Source: Helicobacter sp. 13S00477-4 (GTDB taxonomy: Bacteria > Campylobacterota > Campylobacteria > Campylobacterales > Helicobacteraceae). From it: a stretch of DNA of 64,000 nt. This document shows positions 56,644-63,867 of the stretch, piece after piece; position 1 is the first letter of the stretch; every line of letters begins with the position of its first letter. A program made the position numbers and the translations under genes. The notes below the pieces were generated by a model. It was given only the letters and a program-made list of their open reading frames with translations. It was not told the DNA's origin and ran no database searches. The DNA lies in NCBI RefSeq assembly GCF_002272785.1, contig NZ_MLAS01000003.1:59355-123354 (forward strand), in the 5' to 3' direction.

Positions 56644-57450
56644 TCATTTAGAATCCAAAATTTTATGGTAGATTTTATCAATATTATCAAGAATGCGGGG
56701 TGTACCACGCAATAGTGAATAAGTATCAATATAAAAAACTTCTTTGTCTTGTGAGGCTTTGGTTTGATTTAACAAAGGGTTTGTTGAGAAAAGTTCATCT
56801 TGATTCTGCACTCTCAAACCATAAAAAATGATTTCAGGATTAGATTTTAAAATATATTCTTGAGAAAGGATAGGTTTTTTGCCCGGTAAGTTTGCAGCGA
56901 TATTTTTTATGCCTATGGCTTCAAAAACACTGCCTGGTAATGTATTATTTGGGAAAACCATTAAAGGGGAAACTGAATAAATAAAGACACCTTTTTTATT
57001 CAAAGGATTTTCTTTAAATCCTTGTAATTTTTTTTCAAAATCATTTTTTAGTTTGGTCGCTTCGGGTTCTTTATCTAGTATTTTACCCATTTCTTGAATA
57101 TTTTGTCCAATTTCTTTAAGAGTATCAGCTTTGAGATAAAGAGTTTTGATACCGAATCTTTTCAAATTATTTTCAAGATTCAGGCTATAAGAACTTAATA
57201 TAACTATATCGGGCTTTAGAGCGATGATTTTTTCTAAAGAAGGGTTTGAGAATGTCCCTACACTTTTTAGTTTTGAAGTTTTTTCTTTAGGGTAGATTTG
57301 AGAGCTTTGCATTTTGGCGATAGCAAGTATCCTGTCTTCTCCTCCTAGCATATAGGTAATCTCTATGATAGCAGGATCAAGGATAACTAACATCTGTTTT
57401 GTGATTCCAAAAGTGCAGATAAGGCATAGAAATAAAAGCATTTTTTTCAT
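56644..57450 (-). CDS. Periplasmic metal/metal-chelate binding protein of an ABC importer
   Basis: 268 residues with a signal peptide (about 1-18, no lipobox). It has the two-lobed helical-backbone binding fold of class III binding proteins: ITYMLGGEDRILAIAK, SVGTFSNPSLEKIIALKPDIVI, and LPGKKPILSQEYILKSNPEIIFYG. Cargo may be ferric siderophore, heme, cobalamin or a nickel/cobalt complex; the sequence does not decide. Last gene of the receptor-permease-ATPase-binding protein operon, with ATGA overlap to the ATPase. Confidence 0.85.
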   Translation of the reverse strand: MKKMLLFLCLICTFGITKQMLVILDPAIIEITYMLGGEDRILAIAKMQSSQIYPKEKTSKLKSVGTFSNPSLEKIIALKPDIVILSSYSLNLENNLKRFGIKTLYLKADTLKEIGQNIQEMGKILDKEPEATKLKNDFEKKLQGFKENPLNKKGVFIYSVSPLMVFPNNTLPGSVFEAIGIKNIAANLPGKKPILSQEYILKSNPEIIFYGLRVQNQDELFSTNPLLNQTKASQDKEVFYIDTYSLLRGTPRILDNIDKIYHKILDSK

Positions 57451-58244
57451 TTTTTTTCCTTTTTTACAATGATAAATGGATATCCATTGTGGTCAATAAC
57501 ATCACAATCAAAACCGTAAACATCCAGCAATATATTTGGTTGGAACAAGTCTTTTGGGCTTCCCGCATAGAGAATTTTTCCTCCTTTGATGAAAAATATT
57601 TTTGTACAAAATAACCCAGCTAGATTGATGTCATGTAGAACTGCTATAGTCGTTATATGAATTGTTTTGCATAGTTTTTCACAAAGCCTCATTGTTTCAA
57701 GGGCATAATTTAGATCCAAAGCACTTGTAGGTTCATCAAGTAGCAAGATTTTGGGATTTGAAGCTAGGGCTCTAGCGAGCAATACTCTTTGGAACTCTCC
57801 CCCACTAAGACTTAGTGCTATACGTTTTTTAAGATGTTGGATATTTAATGATGAAGCGATTTTATCAATCTCTTGAGTATCTGTTATACTATATCCTTTG
57901 ATAGGATTTTCCAATGAAGAATACCTTCCCATATATAAAATATCTTCAACCAGCAAGGGCATAGAGAGGGAAGATTTTTGTGGCAAAAAACCAAGCATAT
58001 TAGCTAGGTCTTTATGATTGTAATGTGAAATATCTTTATTAAAGAGTTTTACATAGCCTGAGAAGGGTTTTAAGATACCTAATATTTGTTTTATTAGGGT
58101 GCTTTTGCCACAACCATTTGGTCCAAGTATACCGATGAATTCACCTTTTTTTGCATTTAGATTGATGTTTTTGAGGATATTTTGTGTTTGATGATAATCA
58201 AAGCATAAACCTTTGATTTGGAGCAAATCCATTGAACTTACCAT
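57447..58244 (-). CDS. FecE/BtuD-type ABC transporter ATPase
   Basis: 265 residues. Walker A GPNGCGKST, Q-loop LGFLPQKSS, signature LSGGEFQRVLLARAL, Walker B ILLLDEPTSALD and switch VLHDINLA are all intact. The start is ATG 58244, 7 bases after AGGAT. Two bases separate it from the permease stop. It powers uptake through the FecCD-type permease; the pair resembles HP0888-HP0889 of H. pylori. Confidence 0.92.
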   Translation of the reverse strand: MVSSMDLLQIKGLCFDYHQTQNILKNINLNAKKGEFIGILGPNGCGKSTLIKQILGILKPFSGYVKLFNKDISHYNHKDLANMLGFLPQKSSLSMPLLVEDILYMGRYSSLENPIKGYSITDTQEIDKIASSLNIQHLKKRIALSLSGGEFQRVLLARALASNPKILLLDEPTSALDLNYALETMRLCEKLCKTIHITTIAVLHDINLAGLFCTKIFFIKGGKILYAGSPKDLFQPNILLDVYGFDCDVIDHNGYPFIIVKKEKK

Positions 58245-58246
58245 TT

Positions 58247-59185
58247 TTATATCCTTTTGCTGAAAGCTAGATAAAGAAAAAGGGGTGCACCAAAAAATGC
58301 TGTGATAACACCAATGGGTATTTCAATAGGGGCTAAAACACTCCTGCCAAATGTATCACACAGTAGCAAAAAAATCCCACCAAGTAAGCAACACATTGGT
58401 AACATAAGGGTGTGATTATTTGTTTTAGTTAGCATGCGGATAGTATGTGGGATGATAAGACCTACAAAACCTATTAAACCGCTGAATCCGACACAAAAAG
58501 CAACAGCCATTGAGGTGACAATGAGGAGATTTTTTTTGCATTTGTTTACATTGACTCCTAGACTTTTAGCTTCATCATCGCCACTAAGCAAAATGTCTAA
58601 TTCAAATCTTTTGAGATAAAAATAAAACATACATCCTGTCAATGGAATAAAAAGCATAAATACCTGATGCCAAGAAGCCCCACCCAAATACCCCATTAGC
58701 CAAGTGATGATTTTGAAAGAATCTTCACCAATGAGGTAAATACTAAAAGTTGTGAACGCACCTAAAAAAGAAGAAGCTGCAATCCCTATGATTAAAAGTG
58801 TAGTGATGTTTTGTCTTTTTGAGATAGAAAAGATTATTAGTGAAAATATTACACAGCACAAAAATCCCATAGTCCCATAATAAAAATCAGCCATTTTTAA
58901 CAAATAAGCTAGCACAGCACCAAATGTAGCACTTGAAGCAATACCAATGATATAGGGGTCAGCAATAGGGTTGGCAAAAACACTTTGGACAACTAATCCA
59001 GAGCTTGCCAAAAGCATACCAATCAAAATGGCTAATAAAATACGTGGCAACCTGATGTCAAACAAAATGATTTTGCTTGTGGTATCAAGACTTCCCCAAT
59101 CAATGCCTACACTACCTATATTGAGTGCAAGTGGAATAGTGATGAGGTATGCGATGATAACCCAAATATAAAATCTAAAAATCAT
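58247..59185 (-). CDS. FecCD-family ABC transporter permease
   Basis: 312 residues, nine or ten membrane helices. RLPRILLAILIGMLLASSGLVVQSVFANPIADPYIIG and the coupling-helix region GFVGLIIPHTIRMLTK are hallmarks of the FecCD/BtuC family. Its start overlaps the receptor gene upstream by 11 bases, so receptor and importer are made together. Confidence 0.92.
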   Translation of the reverse strand: MIFRFYIWVIIAYLITIPLALNIGSVGIDWGSLDTTSKIILFDIRLPRILLAILIGMLLASSGLVVQSVFANPIADPYIIGIASSATFGAVLAYLLKMADFYYGTMGFLCCVIFSLIIFSISKRQNITTLLIIGIAASSFLGAFTTFSIYLIGEDSFKIITWLMGYLGGASWHQVFMLFIPLTGCMFYFYLKRFELDILLSGDDEAKSLGVNVNKCKKNLLIVTSMAVAFCVGFSGLIGFVGLIIPHTIRMLTKTNNHTLMLPMCCLLGGIFLLLCDTFGRSVLAPIEIPIGVITAFFGAPLFLYLAFSKRI

Positions 59186-61385
59186 ATCTTAGCTCGGCAT
59201 AATAACTCCTTCCTGCAGCCGGTATATAGCCTGCTGGAATATACATATCAGCACTTGTAGCTAGTTGATAGCTATAGTATTGTGAATCAAATATATTACG
59301 CACGCCTGCATTGAATTTGAAACTACCAAATTTATAATTGATGCCTAAATCAGTCAAATTATAAGCATTCATTTTCGTATAACTGGTATCAATTGCTGAA
59401 CCAAAAAAGCTATTGTTGGTAAAAATGCTTAGGAGTTGTTTGGGATTTTTGATGATATCATAAGCGATACCAAAAGTAATTTTGTAATCGCGTGCTAGAG
59501 GAACCCTTTTACCTTTATGCAGACCTTTTGTGATATGTGCATCTAGATAAGATATAGATTCATTAAGGTGTAAGGAATCTGAATCAAATAGGTCTTGGAT
59601 AGCAACAAGCTCAATCCCAATCCTTTGAGTTTGATCAAGATTGGTGTAAGTCCAGACGCTACCATGGGTGATCTGATTGATATTGATTTCATCTTGAGTG
59701 AGGGTGTAATAGAGTGTAGCAGAGAGGTAGCTATAAGTAAACTCATCTTTCCAACCTAGCTCAAAAGTATCATAGACTTCAGGTTTGAGTCCATTGTAAT
59801 AAATACCTGTTTTATCTGAATTAGTCAGTTGATTGGGTCCGGGTGTAATGAAACCCCGTTCATATTTGGCATAAATATTTCCAGTGGAGGAGTATTTGAA
59901 ATTTGGGGTGAGTTCTAAGGCATAATTATTCCTAAAAGTATTTTTAGAATAATGAGGGTCTGTTTTGATAGGACTTGTGGCAGGTTTTGTTGGGGGAATG
60001 CCTGTTGCAGCTCCAACTGCTGCAGTTGGAGGAGTGGGTCTCATAGCCCCCCCCCCTATTGTTCCCCCACTCCCACTTGCTGGCATAGCAGGGCGAGTGA
60101 AACTCATAATCATACGGGTTGTTTTATCCCTACCCATTGTATAATAGCTATTTTCATACCTCACTCCGCCTGTGAGATCAAATTTATCTCCAAAATTGTA
60201 TTTTTCTAAAATATAGATAGAGTTGGCAAGTTTATTGTTCTTCAGATCGGTTGTCCAGCTATGATCTAATTTGAATGAAGAGGAATTGACATTATAATGA
60301 GCTTTTTCTTTGCGGTAAGCATTTTGATAAAGGAGATCATAGCCAAACATCAGGGTGTTGTTGCCTGAAATATATTTGGCTTTGGCATTAAGACCTGCAC
60401 CTTGATTGAAAAATCTTGATCCTGAGTTGTCAAAAGGGGTATTTATGCCTCTGGTTGAGACTGTCATAATATTGGTTGTGTAATTGAGGTTGTCCATTTG
60501 ATAAAATCCAAGCAAGTCAAAATGCCAAGAATCAGTCTTTATCCTATAATCAATAGAAGTACTGACAAAATCTTCAGGACTAATAATCCTCCCATCGCCT
60601 ATTGCAGTCCTGTCTTTTTTGACTTCTGTAAGGCTTAAAGCTGGAGAAGTCGTTGTGAGTGAGTGAGAATAACTGGCATTAAAATGGATGGATTGATTTT
60701 GATTTATCTTATAGAGGGTTTCTAAGGCAACATAATAATTAAATAAACTATCCCCTTGTCTGTATCCACTCGTATTAGCAACGCTTATATCGGCTTTTAG
60801 GAAAAGATTTTGGGTTATTTTTTTACCTGCGGATACATCAGCACGACCAAATAAGCCATTTTTGGTTTCATATGACCCACCTTTGAGGGCAAAATTAGCA
60901 AAATCTTTAGGGTTTTGTTTGGTCACAATATTGATGACCCCACCCCTTGTCCCATTGCCATACACAACAGCCCCACCACCAGGAATGACTTCAATAGATT
61001 CTACATCTTCAATATTGATCATGCCAATTGGTGTGATGCCATGGCTAGTATCCAAAAGGTTGATAGGGACACGATTGATGAGGACTTTGATGGCTGTGTT
61101 TGCCTTATCGCCTTGTCCTCGCAAATCAATATTTTCTCCGAATCCATTATTTGAAAAAGTCAACAAAGGGACGTAGCGAAGTGCATCATCTAAGGTTTGA
61201 TATCCTTTGTTTGTGAGTGTAGGTTTGTCAATGACTAACATATTGCGGGCTTCATCTTTGAGCTGCATATCAAATCCAGTCGCTGAGGTTACGACTTTAT
61301 TGAGAGTAGCTTCTTGTTCGTCTATGGCACTGAGGGTTTGTAATGCTATGATGAGCATTACAAAAGTTTTGTAGAGTTTGTTCAT
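59175..61385 (-). CDS. TonB-dependent receptor with poly-G tract (candidate phase-variable)
   Basis: 736 residues from ATG 61385 (AAAAGGA 6 bases upstream; the frame opens at TTG 61406). Signal peptide about 1-20; plug domain with ATGFDMQLKDEARNMLVID, LINRVPINLL, IEVIPGGGAVVYGNGTRGG; barrel ending YAELRYDF. Around residues 430-490 a Gly/Pro/Thr/Ala-rich insertion, absent from the neighbour receptor, is coded across a run of ten G. The frame is intact here. It heads the ABC importer operon. Cargo unknown. Confidence 0.9.
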   Translation of the reverse strand: MNKLYKTFVMLIIALQTLSAIDEQEATLNKVVTSATGFDMQLKDEARNMLVIDKPTLTNKGYQTLDDALRYVPLLTFSNNGFGENIDLRGQGDKANTAIKVLINRVPINLLDTSHGITPIGMINIEDVESIEVIPGGGAVVYGNGTRGGVINIVTKQNPKDFANFALKGGSYETKNGLFGRADVSAGKKITQNLFLKADISVANTSGYRQGDSLFNYYVALETLYKINQNQSIHFNASYSHSLTTTSPALSLTEVKKDRTAIGDGRIISPEDFVSTSIDYRIKTDSWHFDLLGFYQMDNLNYTTNIMTVSTRGINTPFDNSGSRFFNQGAGLNAKAKYISGNNTLMFGYDLLYQNAYRKEKAHYNVNSSSFKLDHSWTTDLKNNKLANSIYILEKYNFGDKFDLTGGVRYENSYYTMGRDKTTRMIMSFTRPAMPASGSGGTIGGGAMRPTPPTAAVGAATGIPPTKPATSPIKTDPHYSKNTFRNNYALELTPNFKYSSTGNIYAKYERGFITPGPNQLTNSDKTGIYYNGLKPEVYDTFELGWKDEFTYSYLSATLYYTLTQDEININQITHGSVWTYTNLDQTQRIGIELVAIQDLFDSDSLHLNESISYLDAHITKGLHKGKRVPLARDYKITFGIAYDIIKNPKQLLSIFTNNSFFGSAIDTSYTKMNAYNLTDLGINYKFGSFKFNAGVRNIFDSQYYSYQLATSADMYIPAGYIPAAGRSYYAELRYDF
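59848..59924 (-). repeat. 77-bp exact repeat shared with the neighbour receptor gene (copy 1)
   Basis: Identical base for base to 62216-62292, encoding the barrel segment around ALELTPNFKYSSTGNIYAKY and on to GFIT. Confidence 0.9.
60047..60056 (-). repeat. G10 homopolymer tract inside the receptor gene
   Basis: Ten C on the plus strand, ten G on the coding strand, reading ATA GGG GGG GGG GCT ATG. With nine G the next codons become CTA TGA, a stop. With eleven G the frame runs about 38 codons to TAA. This is the only G/C run of such length that I noticed in the window. Confidence 0.95.
60898..61019 (-). repeat. 122-bp exact repeat shared with the neighbour receptor gene (copy 1)
   Basis: Identical base for base to 63056-63177; it encodes the conserved plug segment through GGGAVVYGNGTRGGVINIVT. 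Protein-level conservation alone would not keep synonymous sites identical. Confidence 0.92.
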
Positions 61386-61410: not shown

Positions 61411-61429
61411 AGTAATTGTTATCATTATA
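61411..61429 (-). promoter_or_regulatory. Fur-box-like sequence upstream of the operon receptor
   Basis: Minus strand TATAATGATAACAATTACT matches the E. coli Fur consensus GATAATGATAATCATTATC at 14 of 19 positions by eye. It lies 25 bases before the ATG at 61385, in the 154-base gap after the other receptor gene. Confidence 0.5.
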
Positions 61430-61539: not shown

Positions 61540-63543
61540 TTAGAAGTTGTATCTTACTTCTGCATAATAGCTCCTATTGGGCGCGGGGATATAAGTAGCA
61601 GTTTCTGTTTTTGATGAATAGTTTTGATAATCGATATAAAGGGCATTGTAGAGATTACGTATTCCGATATTGAATATAAAACCATTTTTTGCTAAGTTTA
61701 ACCCTAAATCACCAAGTATATAGGCATCCATTTTTTGAAATCCATTATCTGCTCTAGGTCCTAAGAAAGAATTGTTTAAAAATACACTCGCAAGGGTTTT
61801 GTTATTTTTAAAAAAATCATAATTCACATTGAGGGTTATTTTGTATTCATTCACATATGGGACTGGTTTGTTTTTTTGATCAGGTATAGAGGTTTTGGTG
61901 ATTTTTGTTTTGATATAAGAGATGGATTCTGCTAAGTGCAGACTATCAAAAAAATCTTGCATACCTATAATTTCAATGCCAAATCTTGATGTTGTCCCAA
62001 TATTTTCATATTGATACCAGAATTTTGAACGATCAATATAGTTGATAATAAATTCATTTTGAGTATCTGTGTAATAGCCTGTTAGGGATAGATATGTCCA
62101 AGCAAATTCATCTTTCCAACCTATTTCATAAGTGTTATAGGTTGAGGGTTGAAGGGTATCATTGATATATGAACCTGTTGAACCCTGTCCTATTAAGAAA
62201 ATTGGCAGAGGCGTGATGAAACCCCGTTCATATTTGGCATAAATATTTCCAGTGGAGGAGTATTTGAAATTTGGGGTGAGTTCTAAGGCATAGCTGTGGA
62301 TCATTCGATTTTTTGAATACATTTCTTTAGAACCAATTTTTTTATAAATATGATAGTAACTATTTTCATACCTTGCCCCACCTGTTAGGTCAAAGTATTT
62401 TATAGGTTTTAGGCTATCAAGGATATAGATTGAGTTTGACCACCTACTATCCCCAGTAGCACTTTTAGAGCCAGTTTTTCTGTCTTTGCTTCCAATAATG
62501 CTTCCTCCATAAATTGAATCTATTCCAAACATCAAGGTATTGTTGGTGATGGTGTGTTTGCCTTTGAGGTTGAGTCCACCTTGTTGGGTATAGAATAATA
62601 TTGGGCTTCCAATTATATTTTTGATGACATATTTGAATTTATCTGAAGTTTGTTGATAAAATCCAAGTGCATCAAATTCTAAAGTATTGCCTACTTTTCC
62701 TTTATAGTTGAGGGAAGTCATCAAAAAATCTAAATCTTTATGAGTCCCTTGATTTCCAGCAGCTCGCCTATCTTCTTTGAGTTGAATTAAGCTAATATTG
62801 TTTGAGTTTAAAGATTTTGTATAAGAATAGGTAGCATTGAAGTTGAGTGAATGGTTTTGATTGAAATTATAAAGAGCTTCAATATTTCCAAACCAGTTGG
62901 TAAATTTTTCTTCTTTCCGGTAGCCTTGTTGGGTCTGGATGGAGGCATTGCCCTTTAAAAAAAACTTATTACTAAGCTTTTTGCCTGCAGATAAATTGTA
63001 TTGGGTGAAGCCAGTTTGTGGAGCTTCATAGACTCCACCTTTGAATGTCATTTGGGCAAAATCTTTAGGGTTTTGTTTGGTCACAATATTGATGACCCCA
63101 CCCCTTGTCCCATTGCCATACACAACAGCCCCACCACCAGGAATGACTTCAATAGATTCTACATCTTCAATATTGATTGAATTAAATGGTGTACTGCCAT
63201 GTGAATTCATCGGGTTTATAGGTACACGGTTTAAAAGGACTTTGACTGATGAATAAGCTTCTCCACCTTGTCCACGCATATCTATCTCATCTCCAAATGC
63301 CCGACTAGAAAAAGTTATCACTGGGATATAACGCAAAGCTTGTTCAACAGATTGGTAACCTTTGTTTTCTATCTGGGATTTGTCAATGACCAACATATTG
63401 CGGGCTTCATCTTTGAGCTGCATATCAAATCCAGTCGCTGAACTCACGATTTTGTCAAGCACTGCTTCTTGCTCATCTAAATCAGTGGCTTCAAGTGTGT
63501 AAAAAATTAAAAGACATAAGATACAAATTTTGAAATATTTCAT
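61540..63543 (-). CDS. TonB-dependent receptor, paralogue of the adjacent receptor
   Basis: 667 residues. Signal peptide about 1-19; the mature N-terminus DEQEAVLDKIVSSATGFDM is almost that of its neighbour. Plug with DMRGQGGEAYSSVKVLLNRVPINPM and the GGGAVVYGNGTRGG loop; barrel ends YAEVRYNF. It lacks the Gly/Pro-rich loop and poly-G run of the neighbour, and extracellular loops differ. It likely imports a related chelate through the same ABC system. Separate Fur-like operator upstream. Confidence 0.9.
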   Translation of the reverse strand: MKYFKICILCLLIFYTLEATDLDEQEAVLDKIVSSATGFDMQLKDEARNMLVIDKSQIENKGYQSVEQALRYIPVITFSSRAFGDEIDMRGQGGEAYSSVKVLLNRVPINPMNSHGSTPFNSINIEDVESIEVIPGGGAVVYGNGTRGGVINIVTKQNPKDFAQMTFKGGVYEAPQTGFTQYNLSAGKKLSNKFFLKGNASIQTQQGYRKEEKFTNWFGNIEALYNFNQNHSLNFNATYSYTKSLNSNNISLIQLKEDRRAAGNQGTHKDLDFLMTSLNYKGKVGNTLEFDALGFYQQTSDKFKYVIKNIIGSPILFYTQQGGLNLKGKHTITNNTLMFGIDSIYGGSIIGSKDRKTGSKSATGDSRWSNSIYILDSLKPIKYFDLTGGARYENSYYHIYKKIGSKEMYSKNRMIHSYALELTPNFKYSSTGNIYAKYERGFITPLPIFLIGQGSTGSYINDTLQPSTYNTYEIGWKDEFAWTYLSLTGYYTDTQNEFIINYIDRSKFWYQYENIGTTSRFGIEIIGMQDFFDSLHLAESISYIKTKITKTSIPDQKNKPVPYVNEYKITLNVNYDFFKNNKTLASVFLNNSFLGPRADNGFQKMDAYILGDLGLNLAKNGFIFNIGIRNLYNALYIDYQNYSSKTETATYIPAPNRSYYAEVRYNF
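62216..62292 (-). repeat. 77-bp exact repeat shared with the neighbour receptor gene (copy 2)
   Basis: Identical to 59848-59924. Confidence 0.9.
63056..63177 (-). repeat. 122-bp exact repeat shared with the neighbour receptor gene (copy 2)
   Basis: Identical to 60898-61019. Confidence 0.92.
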
Positions 63544-63867
63544 TTTTTAGATTCCTTAATTAATAATTATAATAATCGTTATTAATATATAAATATACTT
63601 AACATTTGCTGAATTAATAAATAATTCAACTCCAAATCCCTTCAATATACCTCATTACTCCCCCAAATTGATCTCAAAATATAACATTGTGCAGATGGGT
63701 AAATGGGATGAGGTATTATGGTAGGAGAACTTCAATCCATAAAGATTGGATAAGATTGCATCCTTATGCAATCTATTGAGTTTGATGGGATACTCTATTT
63801 GAAATGAACTTAATAAATCAAAGATAAGTCCAATCTAATCTTAATTTTATGGGGTTTGCCTGTGAAT
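63544..63867. other. 324-base intergenic region with hairpins
   Basis: Holds the promoter side of the receptor gene, then no open frame I can support. Hairpin GATTGCAT-CCTT-ATGCAATC at 63754-63773 (perfect 8-bp stem) and a smaller CAATC/GATTG stem at 63733-63748 lie side by side, without T runs. A small RNA or a 3' UTR of the partial gene at the window end is possible. Confidence 0.5.
63570..63584 (-). promoter_or_regulatory. Fur-like operator candidate upstream of the second receptor
   Basis: TAATAATCGTTATTA is palindromic at 12 of 14 paired positions, 26 bases before the receptor ATG, in an AT-rich stretch of further TAAT steps typical of Helicobacter Fur targets. Confidence 0.5.

Follow-up and report, generated by a model that had tools for sequence, protein, structure and literature searches.

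The window is the whole stretch of 64,000 nucleotides from Helicobacter sp. 13S00477-4 (contig NZ_MLAS01000003.1) that was analysed. Its minus strand carries a gene for a TonB-dependent receptor of 736 amino acids (59175-61385), which matches the Pfam plug and barrel models over their cut-offs (PF07715, 60.6 bits; PF00593, 93.9 bits). Within this gene is a run of ten G on the coding strand (C10 on the plus strand) at 60047-60056, the sole G/C run longer than 6 in the window. The codons from 443 read ATA GGG GGG GGG GCT, and the run starts at codon 444 of a 736-codon reading frame with zero internal stops. The frame is open at the present tract length. Read in the other two frames of the minus strand, the gene shows that a one-base change in the tract would lead to an early stop: one frame reaches TGA 2 codons past the tract (CTA TGA, 60041-60043) and the other reaches TAA 33 codons past it (59944-59946). 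The initial annotation described ten G in the coding strand with the frame kept and a CTA TGA at once in one shifted frame, and the sequence agrees on both. It also put a stop about 38 codons on in the other frame; the stop exists, but at 33 codons.

The end of the receptor gene overlaps by 11 bases a gene for a FecCD/BtuC-type permease (58247-59185). This is followed on the same strand by genes for an ABC transporter ATPase (57447-58244) and a periplasmic binding protein (Peripla_BP_2, 56644-57450), all three recognized by profile matches. A paralogous TonB-dependent receptor gene lies upstream, also on the minus strand (61540-63543). According to Pfam, the tract count and a tree it is a second receptor that is 46% identical to the first and has no tract. 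The receptor had been described as heading the importer operon. It does precede the importer genes, but the tract-free receptor stands just upstream of it on the same strand. The tandem receptors share exact stretches at 59848-59924/62216-62292 (77 bases), 60898-61019/63056-63177 (122 bases) and 61237-61286/63392-63441 (50 bases). Such stretches despite 46% protein identity suggest gene conversion between the two. There are Fur-box-like sites near both genes, all of them weak matches to the consensus. The one upstream of the tract gene (61413-61427) agrees at 11 of 14 positions. A/T-rich sites at 63561-63584, just upstream of the tract-free paralogue, agree at 12 and 13 of 14.

A Chu-type heme importer has the gene order receptor, permease, ATPase, binding protein. 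The order here fits that reference. Hints of heme uptake itself are weak. Some relatives of the receptor have been automatically named heme receptors, for example P0014 at 41% identity. The receptor scores far below the cut-offs of the heme receptor model TIGR01785 (95.8 against 316.85 bits) and of the HmbR-type haemoglobin receptor model TIGR01786 (92.5 against 323.75 bits). The importer ATPase reaches 220.1 bits with the heme ATPase model NF010068, below its cut-off of 261. Our guess is heme or another iron chelate, and the "metal receptor" of the initial annotation is unproven.

It is worth considering where the tract falls in the protein. The predicted structure has a mean pLDDT of 69.9 and 22 long barrel strands, a count that omits four short strands within loops, in a model built from an alignment of 13 sequences including the receptor's own. 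Its closest solved folds are PqqU and FecA. By composition and the model, residues 425-475 (59961-60113, minus strand) are a stretch rich in Ser, Gly, Pro, Ala and Thr that holds the tract. The part around the tract, residues 434-470, falls below a pLDDT of 50 and is flanked by long strands 11 and 12. Counting strands, this disordered insert would be extracellular loop 6. Both the tract and the insert are absent from the five direct orthologues (G001, G002, G004, G005 and G006) identified by tree and alignment, which rules out a tract that has been kept for a long time. The gene of Helicobacter sp. 11S02596-1 was rejected as a further direct orthologue. The tree gives it a long branch and an unsure place, nearer to the paralogue at 61540-63543.

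The main rival to a switch is that the tract arose as a side effect when a variable surface loop expanded by low-complexity growth. Only steps of three would then persist, giving diversity in loop length, and one-base changes would be rare damage. The insert that holds the tract is indeed rich in Gly, Pro, Ala and Thr and is missing from the five orthologues. In four family members (P0005, P0006, P0007 and P0010) the loop preceding the tract loop holds a long insert rich in glycine, and the frame of the window's receptor is open. However, the insert glycines outside the run use mixed codons while the run itself is pure. We consider loop growth unlikely, and two further observations given below count against it.

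One can also propose that the tract is a functionless chance run of GGG codons. The intact frame and the absence of the tract from the orthologues are compatible with this. The distribution of run lengths is not. The window has 117 G/C runs of length 4, 20 of length 5, 3 of length 6, none of 7-9 and one of 10. The whole genome (1.776 Mb) has 52 runs of at least 9 against only 11 of 7-8. Tract lengths range from 9 to 13 with a mode of 11, and 15 of 53 are of length 10 (these 53 come from the fetched stretches of the genome and are one beyond the 52, the extra run sitting at the first base of a contig). Synonymous-codon resampling of the 16 plug-domain genes in this genome gave a mean of 0.11 runs of at least 9, against 3 observed, and 0 of 400 simulations reached 3. 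Together, the run lengths and the resampling make a chance codon run so improbable that we rule it out.

The genes that carry tracts in this genome are of several kinds. Pfam searches with 30 of their frames found N6-methylases, type I specificity subunits (HsdS), methyltransferases, a fucosyltransferase and a glycosyltransferase 8 (GT8), and found no match for 11 of the 30. The frame is broken at the tract in four loci (L056, L062, L068 and L076). Many tracts are at the 5' end of frames; the receptor tract is mid-gene, in a low-complexity loop. Genes for a formyltransferase, a short-chain reductase and a methyltransferase also bear tracts (L072 and L074-L076, on contigs C40 and C45), in some cases near the 3' end. 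Their classes resemble those of the tract cluster of Helicobacter canadensis, with its switching at the C-terminus, described in PMC2823697. A 21-base inverted repeat with 10-base arms and a 1-base loop lies at 60011-60031, 15 bases from the receptor tract. A hairpin beside the tract as an aid to slippage found no support, as 2 of 53 tracts have one compared to 11 of 300 random places.

One-base differences in tract length exist within this assembly. Six copies of one repeated 5' region have the same flanks around a tract, which four carry as G10 and two as G11. A second tract farther upstream, also between identical flanks, is C10 in a single copy and C11 in the other five. The 3' flank comes in two kinds, and both G lengths occur with each; the copies are paralogues rather than isolates. 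The loci (L040, L047, L052, L065, L073 and L078) are near contig ends, and their open frames run off the contig 650-815 bases later. The C10-11 is upstream of a likely promoter and the G10-11 is just past a short signal-like start. Three such frames, those of L040, L047 and the related L064, gave no match in Pfam. From its sequence, the region looks like part of a multi-copy family of exported proteins with two possible switches.

These copies also bear on the idea that the slips occur as the gene is transcribed or translated and not in the DNA. In that case every cell would have an unchanged G10 and a graded, lowered amount of receptor. As a general matter, an open frame that contains a homopolymer might allow such slips. 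However, the differences between identically flanked copies are differences in DNA, and the usual site of transcript slippage is poly-A/T. We regard this explanation as very improbable.

The same receptor family in other Helicobacter was examined through 27 other named loci found by tblastn with the family alignment, to which several genomes contribute more than one. The non-Helicobacter loci L193 and L198 were left out; neither has a run of at least 8 inside it. A run of at least 9 is found in the gene in 4 of the 27, at three further sites, and the frame is broken there in three of the four. In sp. 11S02596-1, frames of 217 and 527 amino acids meet at the tract, which falls on the Pro-Gly-Gly-Gly of the plug. 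The H. saguini tract lies between a frame of 470 amino acids and one of 359 and, judged by eye, falls where the strand leading into loop 6 ends. Pfam does not match the second of these frames by itself, though the tblastn match spans query residues 18-736. In sp. MIT 00-7814, a 57-residue signal-type frame and a 902-residue body meet at the tract, and an internal start is possible. In H. marmotae, the tract is near the N-terminus and the frame is open.

Such a comparison with related genomes had been named in the initial annotation as a way to check the tract. It shows five direct orthologues without a tract and four family loci with tracts at other sites. If the locus in the window is included, 2 of the 5 tract-bearing loci are in frame. 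On these small numbers, that is compatible with free switching, which would leave one third in frame. The out-of-frame alleles (3 of 4 loci) are all at sites other than that of the window's tract. Three family members broken at their tracts are the first of the further observations against loop growth. The family is not enriched in tracts relative to its own flanks (4 in 62 kb against 7 in 193 kb, P 0.27), so the family argument rests on the broken frames and not on enrichment. Poly-G right after the Ile-Pro of the plug motif was seen in 2 of 121 genomes of the family, and in the second of these (G067) it is between two other frames and not in a receptor. A scan of genome contigs with a single protein gave no match.

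Plug-domain genes in general were compared at 88 places in seven genomes of the genus, counting a run of at least 9 inside the plug-bearing frame or at its break. Tracts are present in 3 of 16 such genes in the genome of the window (G000), 10 of 16 in G003, which matches sp. 11S02596-1, and 1 of 12 in G006. There are none in G001 (0/10), G002 (0/8), G004 (0/13) or G005 (0/13). The G003 tracts (L133, L134, L136, L137 and L143-L148) are G/C runs 9-13 bases long, many of them close to the 5' end, and the frame is broken at the tract in 2 of 10 (L134 and L146). In L134, Pfam finds the plug in one piece and the barrel in the other. Compared to the genome-wide tract density, the G003 receptors have a clear excess (10 against 1.99 expected, P 4e-5), and those of G000 have no clear enrichment (3 against 1.03, P 0.086); this test assumes rounded genome sizes and 2.2 kb per gene. 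In codon resampling, the 8 tracts in 14 intact genes of G003 exceed the 1.21 expected and all 400 simulations, as the 3 of G000 do. The single tract of G006 does not stand out, as 64 of 400 simulations reached it. The other two receptor tracts of G000 are on conserved glycines of barrel segments and not in loop inserts, which is the second observation against loop growth. One of these two sites bears G9 in G003 too.

We argue that the best reading of the G10 tract is that it is, quite probably, a contingency locus and a slippage-driven ON/OFF switch of the receptor. The initial annotation had proposed a phase-variable receptor. The tract, the frames, the tracts across the genome, the one-base differences and the broken family members favor this over the other explanations, and the proposal as a whole is partly supported. 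Several results count against it: the direct orthologues lack both tract and insert, the tract is mid-gene in a low-complexity loop while many others of this genome are at 5' ends, and tracts are neither clearly enriched in the receptors of this genome (P 0.086) nor enriched in the family over its flanks (P 0.27). Slipped-strand mispairing at replication would alter the length of the tract. The receptor would flip ON and OFF because only lengths three apart keep the frame, going between the full-length protein of the present state and a product cut at predicted extracellular loop 6. This product would keep strands 1-11 out of the 22 predicted for the barrel and would form no receptor. Translation in the OFF state would end about 0.76-0.86 kb short of the overlapping permease start, so expression of the importer genes may drop as well through lost translational coupling. 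As for the benefit, our guess is that cells would escape phage, bacteriocin or antibody and still have a working receptor in the neighbouring tract-free paralogue.

A wider scenario is also conceivable, which we rate somewhat short of an even chance. One heme-type family of TonB receptors in Helicobacter may have gained slippage switches repeatedly, at a different spot in each species (the plug, the end of strand 11, loop 6 and the N-terminus). In one congener most plug-domain genes would be switchable, and nutrient uptake would be a bet-hedged phasome of a whole class. Instead of being inherited, tracts would keep arising afresh from Gly-Gly-Gly codons and G-rich loop inserts. If this is true, chance switching of iron-type receptors is no speciality of Neisseria. 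It would have evolved anew, and more than once, in Helicobacter, with relatives of reptile-associated isolates among the cases. A single family whose tracts differ in site from species to species would then be a natural series for studying how contingency tracts are born and whether phage, bacteriocin, antibody or nutrient cost selects them.

Our search of the open-access literature found no report of TonB-receptor switching in Helicobacter. The reptile-associated Helicobacter, including 11S02596-1 and 12S02634-8, are covered by PMC5566214, in whose main text no word starts with phase, homopolymeric, TonB, iron, poly or receptor. The text on H. pylori B8 (PMC3091624) has a gene labelled tonB that is highly variable between strains, with no tract given there. 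H. canadensis, of the same genus name, is alike in having poly-G of at least 9 in frames. Reads showed variation at all 29 of its listed tracts, among them G9 and G10, and one G10 ranged from 8 to 11; these were 454 reads, which the authors call problematic for homopolymers (PMC2823697). It is unlike the present case in that Tables 1 and 2 of that paper have no TonB receptor. The Campylobacter phasome as described with PhasomeIt (PMC6321876) shares strain-variable G/C tracts, of 7-13, and includes HxuB, a heme/hemopexin transporter protein precursor. It differs in that "TonB" is absent from the main text. The established case of poly-G switching of TonB receptors is Neisseria, with HmbR and HpuA. 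In Neisseria meningitidis, as described in the text of PMC3786947 and PMC3352162, hmbR and hpuA have an in-frame poly-G switch that works by slipped-strand mispairing and is ON at G9 in hmbR and at G10 in hpuA. The likeness to the haemoglobin receptors HmbR and HpuAB is the poly-G in the frame of a TonB-dependent uptake system, HpuA being the lipoprotein partner of HpuB. Unlike HmbR, the receptor here is far below the TIGR01786 cut-off (92.5 against 323.75 bits) and has its tract in a lineage-specific loop insert. Most likely the tract works like the switch of HmbR, in a receptor that is outside the HmbR family.
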